64,000 nucleotides of DNA from Microbacterium sp. H1-D42 (GTDB lineage: Bacteria > Actinomycetota > Actinomycetes > Actinomycetales > Microbacteriaceae). Location of the stretch: NCBI RefSeq assembly GCF_022637555.1, contig NZ_CP093342.1, positions 1,674,001 through 1,738,000 of the forward strand, read 5' to 3'. Below are positions 30,573 through 34,393 of the stretch, piece by piece; the stretch's first letter is position 1, and the number at the start of each line of letters is the position of its first letter. A program made the translations under genes and the position numbers. The notes below the pieces were generated by a model that was given only the letters and a program-made list of their open reading frames with translations, was not told the origin of the DNA and did no database searches.

Positions 30573-30576
<4 letters not shown>

Positions 30577-31892
30577 GTCAGACGGCACCTCAGGCGCGCT
30601 CAGCCGGCCTGCGGTACGTCTTCCCCGTGCTGGCGGGTAAGCTCGCGCGTTTCGCGACCCGTCTGCGCGGGGGAGGGTCCGCCTTCCCCGGCTACCTCAC
30701 GAACCGTCTCTCGCCGACGCTGCTGCCGACCCTTGCCGGTCAGTTCCGCTACGGCGTGGTGTTCGTGCTCGGCTCCAACGGCAAGACCACCACGACGCAC
30801 ATGATCAGCGAGGTGCTGCGTGCGCACGGCCTGACCGTGTTCACCAACCCCACGGGCGCCAACCTGCCGCAGGGCGTCACCAGCGCACTGCTGGCCGATG
30901 CCACGCTCACGGGCCGGATCAAGGCCGACGTCGCGGTGCTCGAGATCGACGAGGGCTTCGCTGCCGATCTCGCCGATCGTCTGTCGCCGTCGGTGATCCT
31001 GTCGCTGAACGTGCAGGTCGACCAGCTGTACCGGTTCTACGAGACTGAGCGCGTCGCCGACATGATGCTCGAGGCATCCAAGCGCGCCTCGGCGCACGTC
31101 GTGATCAATCGCGATGACCCGTACCTGTCGAAGATCGACGTGGATGCCATGCGGGCACCGGTGTCGTTCTTCGGAGTTGCCCCCGAGATCGTCGCCGCCT
31201 CCGCACACGGACTCGCCAACGCGGCCGACACGCGCAGCGGCACCGCCGGCACGCTCGCACGCGACGCCTTCGCCGAAGTGCGCGAGGTCTCCGGTCGCGA
31301 CATCGTCGTGAACGTCGGGGGAGCGGATGCCCGTGTCACCCTTCCCGCCCGCGGGCTGCACTACGCGGCAGATGCCGCGGCGGCGCTCACGGTGGCATCG
31401 GGAGTGCTCGGCGACGAGTTCGACACCACGCGCGCCGCGGCAGGGTTCGCCACCATGGCACCGGCCTACGGTCGCGGTGAGGTCATCCCGCTGCGCCGGG
31501 ACGGCGCCGGCGAGCAGGTCGAGTTCGTCATGTTCAAGAACGCCCCCAGCATCCAGATGAACCTGGACGCGCTCGAGGGAGCGCCGGCGCGTGCGCTGAT
31601 CGCGATCGACGAGGGCACCCCTGATGTCTCGTGGCTGTACGACGTCGACTTCGCAGCGCTGCCGCGGGTAGACGTCGTCACGGGTGAGAAGGCGTACCAG
31701 CTGGCTCTCGCCCTCTCCTACGCCGGAGTCGAGATCGGCACCGTCGAACCCGACATGGAGAAGGCTGTCGCGATCATGCGCTCCTTCCCCGACACGGATG
31801 CCGGCAAGCAGACCTGGTTCGTGAACTACGAGCTGATGATGATCGGCCGCCGCATTCTCGGCCATGGCGACCAGGAGGTGGCGCGCCGATGA
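30573..31892 (+). CDS. murT: MurT-like Mur ligase lacking the zinc ribbon
   Basis: A 439-residue Mur-ligase-family protein. The P-loop is [12 protein letters not shown], and the C-terminal DUF1727 domain ends with [11 protein letters not shown], keeping the Asp that in MurT completes the GatD triad. In characterised MurT the enzyme activates the alpha-carboxyl of D-Glu in lipid II for amidation. Differences here: no cysteine anywhere, so the four-Cys zinc ribbon is gone (replaced by ~20 residues around ADTRSGTAG). The normal KNPAGFNQ-type segment reads KNAPSIQM. It overlaps sigA and gatD by ATGA. Confidence 0.88.
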
Positions 31893-32641
31893 CGCAGCTC
31901 ACGATCGCACAGCTGTACCCGGCGGAGCTCGGGATCACCGGCGACCGCGGCAACGTGCGCGCCATCGAAGAGCGCATCGCGGCGCGCGGTGCGAACCGCG
32001 TGACCGCTCGTGCCGGTGTGGGCGAGAACCTGCCGGACGACGTCGACATCATCGTCATCGGCAATGGTCCGCTCTCGGCCATGCGCGGCGTGCACGCAGA
32101 CCTGGTCTCGCGTGGCGACCAGCTGCGCTCCTTCATCGAAGCGGGTGGCGTGCTGTTCGCGGTTGGCGGCTCGGCCGAGCTGCTCGGCGCCGGCATCGAC
32201 CTCACCGACGGCACGAGGGTCGAAGGCCTTGGGCTGATGCCGTACCGGGTCGCCCGGACGCGTGACCGTCGAGTCGGATACATCACCGTGCAGACGCCTG
32301 ACGTGCGCGTGGTCGGATTCGAGGACCACGCCTCGGAATGGACGCTCGACGACACGGCGGCCGCCTACGGCGCCGTGATCGCTGGACGCGGCAGCTTCGC
32401 CCACGGCGAGGGCCGTGGCGAGTTCGTGCGTCACCACAACGCGTTCGCCGGCAACGTGCAGGGCCCCGTCCTGCCGCTGAACCCTGCGCTGGCCGACCTG
32501 CTGGTGGCCGCTGCCGGCGAGCGCCGCGGCATCGCCCTGAGTGAGCCTGTAACCGGCCCGTTCGACGAGCACGCCGAGGGCGCTCGGGCGGCGATCGACC
32601 GCTTCATCCACGAAAAGGGCTTCAAGACCATCCAGCTTTGA
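31889..32641 (+). CDS. gatD: GatD-like type 1 glutamine amidotransferase homologue without catalytic Cys and His
   Basis: A 250-residue protein homologous to GatD, the glutaminase partner of MurT (ITIAQLYPAELGITGDRGN start pattern, VEGLGLMPY, VGFEDHASEWTL, QGPVLPLNP). Characterised GatD has CGGYQ with the nucleophile Cys and LHGP with the catalytic His. Here these read VGGSA (V92 at the Cys position) and VQGP (Q191 at the His position), and the protein has no cysteine at all. It cannot hydrolyse glutamine by the known mechanism. The gene is intact and overlaps murT by ATGA. Confidence 0.88.
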   Translation: MTQLTIAQLYPAELGITGDRGNVRAIEERIAARGANRVTARAGVGENLPDDVDIIVIGNGPLSAMRGVHADLVSRGDQLRSFIEAGGVLFAVGGSAELLGAGIDLTDGTRVEGLGLMPYRVARTRDRRVGYITVQTPDVRVVGFEDHASEWTLDDTAAAYGAVIAGRGSFAHGEGRGEFVRHHNAFAGNVQGPVLPLNPALADLLVAAAGERRGIALSEPVTGPFDEHAEGARAAIDRFIHEKGFKTIQL

Positions 32642-32663: not shown

Positions 32664-33353
32664 ATGAGCATCAGCAGCGCGGCACCCCGAGTGCTGCTCT
32701 CGCGTGCCGCGCTCGAGCAGAACGCGCGCACGCTGCTGACCGATGGCTGCACGGTCGATCTGCGGCACGATGCCTTCGGTCACGGTCTGGACGAGTCGGC
32801 GCGGATCTTGGCGGATGCCGGGGCCGGGGCCGTTCTGGTCGACGGGCCGGATGAGGTGGAACGGCTTGGCGCCGTCGGCATCGCAGCGCACGTGAACGGC
32901 GCAGCCGACATCGACGCGTGCGCGCTGTTCGGGATCCCGGACGCCACAGCATCCACCACCGAACCGGTGATGCGGCTGGAAGGCCGCGTGCTGTCAACCA
33001 AGCCGCTTCACGCCGGTGAGGCGGTCTCGTACGGATACACGCACCGCGCACAGCAGGACACGCGCGTGGCGCTGGTCACCGGCGGCTACGCACAGGGCAT
33101 CCTCCGCGCCCTCGGCAATCACGCCCTGGTGCAGATCGGGGAGCGCACGCATCCCATCGTCGGCCGCATCGCCATGGACGTCTGCGTCGTCGACCTCGAG
33201 GGAGCCGATGCCCCCGTCGGAGCACCGGTGGCGTACTTCGGCACCGGCGCGATGCGTGACGCGCTTGCGCACTGGGCCGACGTCACCGGGCTGACGGCTC
33301 TGGAGATGGCGGTCGTCATCGGTCGCCACGGACACCGGGAGTGGGTCGCATGA
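32664..33353 (+). CDS. Alanine-racemase-like protein, C-terminal domain with reduced barrel (no PLP lysine)
   Basis: A 229-residue protein. Residues ~7-75 match only the first two strands of the alanine racemase barrel. The PLP-lysine motif KADAYGHG reads RHDAFGHG, with R34 in place of Lys, and most of the barrel is missing. From ~103 the complete C-terminal beta-domain is present: EGRVLSTKPLHAGEAVSYG with Y123 (equivalent to the catalytic Tyr265 of Bacillus alanine racemase), GGYAQG and VGRIAMDV. The frame is intact and GGAGGACGGC precedes the ATG. Its stop overlaps the next racemase-like gene by ATGA. Probably a subunit, not a free enzyme. Confidence 0.85.
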   Translation: MSISSAAPRVLLSRAALEQNARTLLTDGCTVDLRHDAFGHGLDESARILADAGAGAVLVDGPDEVERLGAVGIAAHVNGAADIDACALFGIPDATASTTEPVMRLEGRVLSTKPLHAGEAVSYGYTHRAQQDTRVALVTGGYAQGILRALGNHALVQIGERTHPIVGRIAMDVCVVDLEGADAPVGAPVAYFGTGAMRDALAHWADVTGLTALEMAVVIGRHGHREWVA

Positions 33354-34393
33354 ACAACGAGGTCGGTCCGGTGCTGGAGATCTCGCGGGCGGCGTTCCGC
33401 CGCAACCTCGCCGCGGTGCGTGAGCACATCCGGCCGGCCGAGCTCATGCTCGTGATGAAGGACGACGCCTACGGGCATGGCCTCGACTGGTCGGTGCCCG
33501 AAGCTGCAGCGAGCGGCGTCACCTGGTTCGGCGCCTACGACATCGAGACCGCGCTGCGCATCCGCGCGCTCACCGATCAGCGCGTCTACGCGTGGGCGAC
33601 GTCGACCACTGCCGAGGTCGAACAGGCCATCGCGAGTGGCATCCACCTCGGCATCGGGTCGATGGACTACCTGAGCGACGTGATCGGTGTCGCCGGGCGC
33701 ACCGGTGTCCGCGCGGACGTGCATCTGAAGATCGACACCGGGCTGCACCGAAACGGATTCCGCCCAGAGGACTGGCCGCAGGCGGTCGCCGCCGCCCGCC
33801 GGGCGGAGCAGCGCGGCGCCGTGCGGGTGGTCGGGGTCTGGAGCCACCTGGCTGAGGCCAGTGACGCGGAGGACGACGCCGCACAGCAGGTCTTCCACGA
33901 AGCGGTGCGCATGCTGACTGATGCCGGCGGACGGCCAGAGGTGCTGCACCTCACGGCATCAGCGGCGTCGTGGTGGCGTCCGGAGCTGCGCGGGTCGCTG
34001 AGCCGGATCGGAGCGTTCTGCTACGGCATCCGATCCGCAGACGGTCCCGAATTGGACGGCATCGAGTTGATCTCGCGGCTGTCGGCGAGTGTGGATGCCG
34101 TCGACGACGATCATGTCGTGGTCGGCCTCGGCGCGTTCCATGGCCTGCCGTCCACGCTGCGTGGCGCGCTCGTCGCGACGCCGGGTGGACCACGGCGGAT
34201 CGTGCGCATCGAGGGGGACTCGACAATGGTCGAGCGCTGGGACGGCGCGCAACCCGGTCAGCGGGTGGTCGTGTTCGGTCCAGGCTCCGCCGGGGAGCCG
34301 GATGCGACCGCTCTCGCAGAGCGCATTGACACCGTCGGCGAGGAGATCATCACTCGCCTCACGCCCGCCGTGCGGCGGGTCATAATCGACTGA
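33350..34393 (+). CDS. Alanine-racemase-like protein with PLP lysine barrel but lacking the catalytic-Tyr strand
   Basis: A 347-residue fold-type III PLP protein. The barrel is complete with PLP lysine K37 (VMKDDAYGHG), DVHLKIDTGLHRNGF, GVWSHLAEAS and the cofactor-contacting LSRIGAFCYG. The C-terminal domain is shortened by about 20 residues exactly where GExVSYG should be, so the catalytic Tyr is absent, and the VGRxxMD motif is degraded to VRIEGDSTMV. It overlaps the preceding gene by ATGA. The two genes carry complementary parts of one racemase active site, suggesting a heterodimer. Its substrate could be alanine or a diamino acid. Confidence 0.88.
   Translation: MNNEVGPVLEISRAAFRRNLAAVREHIRPAELMLVMKDDAYGHGLDWSVPEAAASGVTWFGAYDIETALRIRALTDQRVYAWATSTTAEVEQAIASGIHLGIGSMDYLSDVIGVAGRTGVRADVHLKIDTGLHRNGFRPEDWPQAVAAARRAEQRGAVRVVGVWSHLAEASDAEDDAAQQVFHEAVRMLTDAGGRPEVLHLTASAASWWRPELRGSLSRIGAFCYGIRSADGPELDGIELISRLSASVDAVDDDHVVVGLGAFHGLPSTLRGALVATPGGPRRIVRIEGDSTMVERWDGAQPGQRVVVFGPGSAGEPDATALAERIDTVGEEIITRLTPAVRRVIID

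Follow-up and report, generated by a model that had tools for sequence, protein, structure and literature searches.

A candidate two-subunit racemase encoded by complementary alanine racemase-like genes in Microbacteriaceae

Our analysis of a 64,000-nucleotide stretch of Microbacterium sp. H1-D42 (family Microbacteriaceae; contig NZ_CP093342.1, positions 1,674,001 to 1,738,000; hereafter "the window", whose own numbering is used throughout) points to a racemase assembled from two different proteins, each lacking part of the alanine racemase (Alr) architecture that the other retains. In Alr, an active site takes its lysine from one chain and its catalytic tyrosine from the partner chain. From sequence evidence, we consider it very likely (probability about 0.85) that the products of two overlapping genes, here called A and B, form a two-subunit racemase with a composite site of this kind, dependent on pyridoxal 5'-phosphate (PLP). 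The features concerned are listed below, with counts from the genus and family samples described further on.

32664..33353, + strand: gene A (229 aa), an Alr-like half with a C-terminal domain and a barrel remnant; PF00842 only
33350..34393, + strand: gene B (347 aa), an Alr-like half with a complete PLP barrel (PF01168 complete) and a C-terminal domain (PF00842 weak) without the Tyr strand
33350..33353, + strand: ATGA overlap of the A stop and B start codons
32763..32765, + strand: A Arg34 at the PLP-lysine position (Lys in 0/81 genus A, with 2 gaps, and 0/58 family A, with 1 gap)
33030..33032, + strand: A Tyr123, aligning with Alr Tyr265' (Tyr in 81/81 genus A and 58/58 family A)
33458..33460, + strand: B Lys37, the PLP lysine, Alr Lys39 (Lys in 81/81 genus B and 59/59 family B)
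34340..34342, + strand: B Glu331 at the Alr Tyr354 position, a putative reader of a substrate side-chain amine (Glu in 81/81 genus B)

The sole Pfam match of A is Ala_racemase_C (97.6 bits); of the 230 columns of the barrel alignment, 92 are occupied by residues of A. B gives a full-length match to Ala_racemase_N (159.3 bits) and a weak one to Ala_racemase_C (26.3 bits; cut-off 25). Both A (88.6 bits) and B (119.3 bits) fall below the 168-bit cut-off of the NCBI alanine racemase model TIGR00492, and neither carries the PLP lysine and the C-terminal catalytic tyrosine on one chain. A contains a VSYG motif with Tyr123, which we take to be the equivalent of Tyr265', the opposite-face acid/base of Alr; read from sequence, it also has equivalents of Met312'/Asp313', which in Alr come from the partner. 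B contains Lys37, has a gap at the VSYG strand and shows a degraded VGRxxMD motif. Residue positions are given by what we take to be the Alr numbering (Lys39, Tyr265, Arg309, Met312, Tyr354), and the barrel residues typical of fold type III PLP racemases (PLP Lys, Arg136, His166, Ser204, Arg219) are present. Tyrosine at position 354, which is usual though not universal in TIGR00492-type proteins, is replaced in the window by Glu331. The original prediction, made from the letters of the window, had described both proteins as complementary remnants joined by an ATGA overlap; Pfam and alignment bear out both descriptions, and the overlap lies at 33350-33353, with the start of B taken as the ATG at 33350. 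Elsewhere, the same genome encodes two further Alr-like proteins, both with PLP lysine and catalytic tyrosine.

The evidence that carries the composite site is the way the two proteins divide the conserved residues. Counting 140 B proteins (81 genus, 59 family) and 139 A proteins (81 genus, 58 family), we found that the eight barrel residues examined are conserved in 140/140 B proteins, in which the Tyr265 column is a gap, and that Tyr265, Arg309 and Met312 are kept in 139/139 A proteins, in which the Lys39 position is never lysine. Some A proteins retain a full-length barrel and still lack the catalytic lysine. A composite site predicts complementary conservation of this kind, and its strictness is strong evidence that A and B make one site together, binding itself being a separate matter. 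The earlier proposal that Lys37 of B and Tyr123 of A share a site thus gains support from sequence evolution.

The two genes also travel together. In a sample of 99 Microbacterium genomes, a protein search with orthology set at E 3.2e-60 or better (the next match being 4.4e-38) found B in 81. A lies directly upstream of B in 80/80 fetched loci, two of which are fusions, and likewise in the window; among the 78 two-gene loci, 73 have an NTGA stop/start overlap (41 ATGA, 31 GTGA, 1 TTGA) and five have other arrangements. Within the genus, the expectation that the pair always co-occurs holds: in the 81 genomes with B, neither gene stands alone and A adjoins in each. It holds less cleanly in the family, where our 60 fetched loci extend to about E 1.5e-44 and the pair counts exclude two loci with complete Alr genes (L208 and L209). 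There the pair occurs in many genera; one locus at a contig end (L199) has B without A, and in Homoserinibacter gongjuensis (L295) B runs across two reading frames beside an intact A, through either a broken gene or a sequence error. In another family genome (L183), two distinct A-B pairs lie inside about 8 kb. No B match was found in 18 of the 99 genus genomes. One of these 18, G091, shows broken A-like and ParE matches and was kept out of the pair-less count; another, G046, is 81% complete. A ParE tree that included 16 of the pair-less genomes puts 15 of them in a single branch (support 86/93) and places the other, G012, beside the pair-bearing G017. M. paulum is the only described species among the named pair-less Microbacterium genomes; PMC10757982 states which Microbacterium clades contain L-lysine.

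Natural A-B fusions occur in several lineages and keep the catalytic tyrosine, and their recurrence argues for an interaction between A and B. One fusion (P0005) passes TIGR00492 at 196.5 bits against the cut-off of 168. A structure prediction for one natural fusion gave a single confident chain (predicted local distance difference test, pLDDT, 91.5; predicted template modelling score, pTM, 0.90). This model is compatible with a lysine facing the tyrosine, a geometry that it does not itself demonstrate.

Several observations weigh against a composite site. The A part of the fusion model rests on 24 alignment rows, the single-chain structure comparison left A uncovered, and the prediction for a second fusion (L270), run on the lone sequence, was unusable (pLDDT 37.4, pTM 0.31). 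The A protein of one Microbacterium genome outside the counted sets, G650, has Val at the Arg309 position. Among the best 120 matches to the B protein of G650, which is of the Asp type described below, Ser204 is Thr in two and the Tyr265 column holds a letter, never Tyr, in a few.

We infer assembly and catalysis by the pair from these sequence patterns, and propose that A and B would be two obligate subunits of one PLP-dependent enzyme with the alanine racemase fold. B would give the PLP barrel (Lys37, Tyr41, Lys127, Arg134, His166, Ser204 and Arg219), and A would give Tyr123 as the opposite-face acid/base along with Tyr142, Arg168, Met171 and Asp172, as the C-terminal domain of the partner does in Alr. 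Each A-B unit would then hold one working site, as against two per homodimer. The starting point would have been tandem complete racemase genes that underwent complementary loss: the upstream copy would have lost its lysine first and then its barrel, and the downstream copy its tyrosine strand, probably at least twice. That A and B are obligate subunits with this origin is, judging from the sequences, a strong probability.

Living relatives provide candidates for the ancestral arrangement. Two complete tandem racemase genes are present in Curtobacterium (5/5 genomes), Frondihabitans, Herbiconiux gentiana, Subtercola boreus and L209. Lys39 and Tyr265 are present in both copies of each tandem; position 354 is Tyr in the upstream copy and Glu or Asp in the downstream one. 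(In S. boreus, locus L357, and in L209, the downstream complete racemase continues into a C-terminal extra stretch whose motif presumably marks a resemblance to the ATPase TsaE.) In our tree, Tyr-less B proteins form two groups, each with Tyr-bearing tandem copies branching at its base, and a single clade for Tyr-less B was rejected (p 0.00043; 55 rows, after five long or uncertain rows were left out and with Conyzicola, aligned letter G, counted as Tyr-less). Some organisms appear in the tree both as family rows and as named rows (Pseudolysinimonas, Labedella), and in the row labelled G650 a 97% identical protein, P0122, stands in. The tree and the rejection mean that the split arose at least twice or that the tyrosine was regained. 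Repeated loss of the tyrosine strand is probably the case; the alternative would be regain, for example by conversion from the neighbouring copy. The tandem genes, the natural fusions and Glu331 of B are observations beyond the original prediction.

Position 354 bears on the substrate. It is Glu in all 81 genus B proteins and Glu (29) or Asp (30) in the 59 family B proteins, and could not be read in the Homoserinibacter B; those complete Alr genes that we read as single copies have Tyr there. Curtobacterium, which has D-ornithine walls, carries Glu in its acidic copy, and Leifsonia and Pseudoclavibacter, which have 2,4-diaminobutyrate (DAB) walls, carry Asp. The acidic copy is Glu in Microbacterium and Frondihabitans, and Asp in Herbiconiux, Subtercola and a Rhodoluna metagenome-assembled genome. 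Published descriptions give D-ornithine in most Microbacterium clades (PMC10757982) and in Frondihabitans (PMC5945732), D- and L-DAB in Herbiconiux (PMC10011130), DAB in Subtercola (PMC5945732) and D-Ala-D-Dab in Rhodoluna lacicola (PMC4156110). Glu thus appears to pair with ornithine walls and Asp with DAB walls in these five genera. The B protein of M. betulae (P0030), for which PMC11319209 gives ornithine in the wall, has Glu at 354; M. koreense also has a B protein (P0085).

Given this match, the pair may be the source of the D-diamino acid in the wall bridge. Glu or Asp at 354 of B would read the side-chain amine of the diamino acid, and the product would feed the bridge of group-B peptidoglycan. 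A role in making the D-diamino acid of the group-B bridge, which extends the earlier proposal, is on these alignments a good reading that we moderately favour, and we hold with similar reserve that the substrate would be ornithine in Microbacterium and DAB in the Asp-354 relatives. The proposal in its fullest form, in which obligate heterodimers with one composite site arose at least twice, racemise the bridge diamino acid and use Glu or Asp at 354 to help set ornithine versus DAB, is to our mind evenly balanced.

The substrate assignment faces a number of counterexamples. The Glu/Asp rule covers few genera and is confounded by descent, and in three of the five genera the acidic residue belongs to a complete tandem gene rather than to a split B. 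Position 354 is Glu in all of the best 120 matches of one B query and Asp in all of the best 120 matches to the G650 B; since the matches in either set were chosen for their similarity to a single query, this uniformity is mostly descent. Gulosibacter has Asp, and its wall is given as DAB or D-ornithine in PMC6113628; Labedella has Glu, and no account of its wall chemistry was found in the literature. Complete Alr genes were the only matches in Agromyces (6 genomes), Cryobacterium (7), Plantibacter (1) and Salinibacterium, with Tyr at 354 in 6/6 Agromyces and 2/7 Cryobacterium sequences read. The literature gives DAB walls for Cryobacterium and Lys and Orn for Salinibacterium (both PMC7033078), and ornithine as well for Cryobacterium strain 1639 (PMC12113805). 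In the second Alr of the window genome, position 129 is Ser and position 354 is His instead of Tyr. We rejected the pair as the sole route to the D-diamino acid of group-B walls, Agromyces, Cryobacterium and Plantibacter being without such a gene. Locus L386 places an Asp-type pair in G650, within the genus of the window; its nearest named relatives are from Pseudoclavibacter (61-63%), and it looks like an acquisition by transfer.

The same composite enzyme could instead act on alanine, as an extra, dedicated Alr. Its fold, most of its residues and its best solved matches are those of alanine racemases, and named B proteins are annotated as such. We nevertheless consider an alanine substrate unlikely: the window genome already has two Alr-like genes with PLP lysine and catalytic tyrosine, position 354 is Glu or Asp in every counted pair B, and 17 or 18 of the 99 genus genomes do without the pair. 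A different possibility is that B is self-sufficient, as a one-base racemase or another PLP enzyme without need of the tyrosine, with A as a regulator or stabiliser. B does keep a complete PLP site, and PLP proteins of fold type III without the C-terminal domain exist (YggS type). This, too, seems improbable, and rather more so, as A has lost its own barrel residues and yet keeps, in 139/139 proteins, the Tyr, Arg309 and Met312 that serve the partner site in Alr, and as the fusions keep the tyrosine. Finally, the incompleteness of each protein and single broken-B cases such as Homoserinibacter might point to pseudogenes in decay, or to a single Alr gene interrupted by a sequencing error or a frameshift. 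We rejected this explanation, to which we assign next to no probability, on the grounds that the same architecture and residues are conserved in 81/99 genus genomes and many family genera, and that independent lineages converge on the same split.

Two genes upstream of the pair in the window are given as genomic context only.

30573-31892, + strand: MurT-like gene
31889-32641, + strand: GatD-like gene

The whole genus order RpoD, [MurT, GatD], A-B, ParE, ParC is seen at 64 of 80 loci; at the remaining 16, RpoD, ParC or MurT has no match in the region covered. Several other family members have RpoD-MurT-GatD-ParE without the pair. A GatD match occurs in 16 of the 99 genus genomes, all with the pair, and within the fetched region in 15 of 80 loci; with so few, we rejected the idea that the pair requires MurT-GatD. 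In the GatD-like protein, the Cys and His of a glutaminase are missing, by what we take to be the motifs of that family, and among 11 aligned Microbacteriaceae GatD proteins the Cys is absent in 11/11 and the His kept in 6/11. In group-B bacteria, MurT-GatD may therefore do something other than D-glutamate amidation. Searches outside the family covered 297 genomes of the order (E 1e-95 or better) and 394 of the class (E 1e-97 or better); all 22 loci inspected are ordinary Alr genes with Tyr265 and Tyr354, within thresholds that leave weaker matches unseen and could miss a distant pair. Two records titled Stenotrophomonas maltophilia (L246) and Planococcus (L278) include ParE regions resembling those of Microbacterium (85 and 90% to the query) and look mislabelled or contaminated.

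In a literature search limited to papers outside subscription, we found no split or heterodimeric alanine racemase, no Clavibacter DAB racemase or Microbacterium ornithine racemase, and no described racemase for the D-ornithine or D-DAB of group-B peptidoglycan. If the proposal is right, A-B is a clear natural example of a homodimeric enzyme that became an obligate heterodimer through complementary losses, and the complete tandem, partly eroded, split and re-joined fused forms can all be seen in bacteria alive today. The proposal would further identify where the D-ornithine or D-DAB in group-B peptidoglycan comes from, and position 354 might serve as a sequence mark for predicting wall type from genomes. 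Many B proteins are automatically annotated "alanine racemase" despite the absent catalytic tyrosine.

Among known systems, Alr (TIGR00492, fold type III PLP) is closest to A-B in fold and catalytic residues. Alr is a homodimer of complete chains with two sites, whereas A and B are products of different genes and each lacks what its partner retains; where Alr has Tyr354, the B of the pair has Glu or Asp. Lysine and broad-specificity racemases (4dza, 4dyj and 7agz, whose entry titles refer to basic or many amino acids) share the Alr fold with A-B. The trypanosomatid "prozymes" of deoxyhypusine synthase and S-adenosylmethionine (AdoMet) decarboxylase, in which a catalytically dead paralog activates its partner, resemble A-B in that a paralog without catalysis has become an obligate activating subunit. 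These are unrelated enzymes, however, and in A-B the partner would supply the second catalytic acid/base itself, having lost most of its own barrel.
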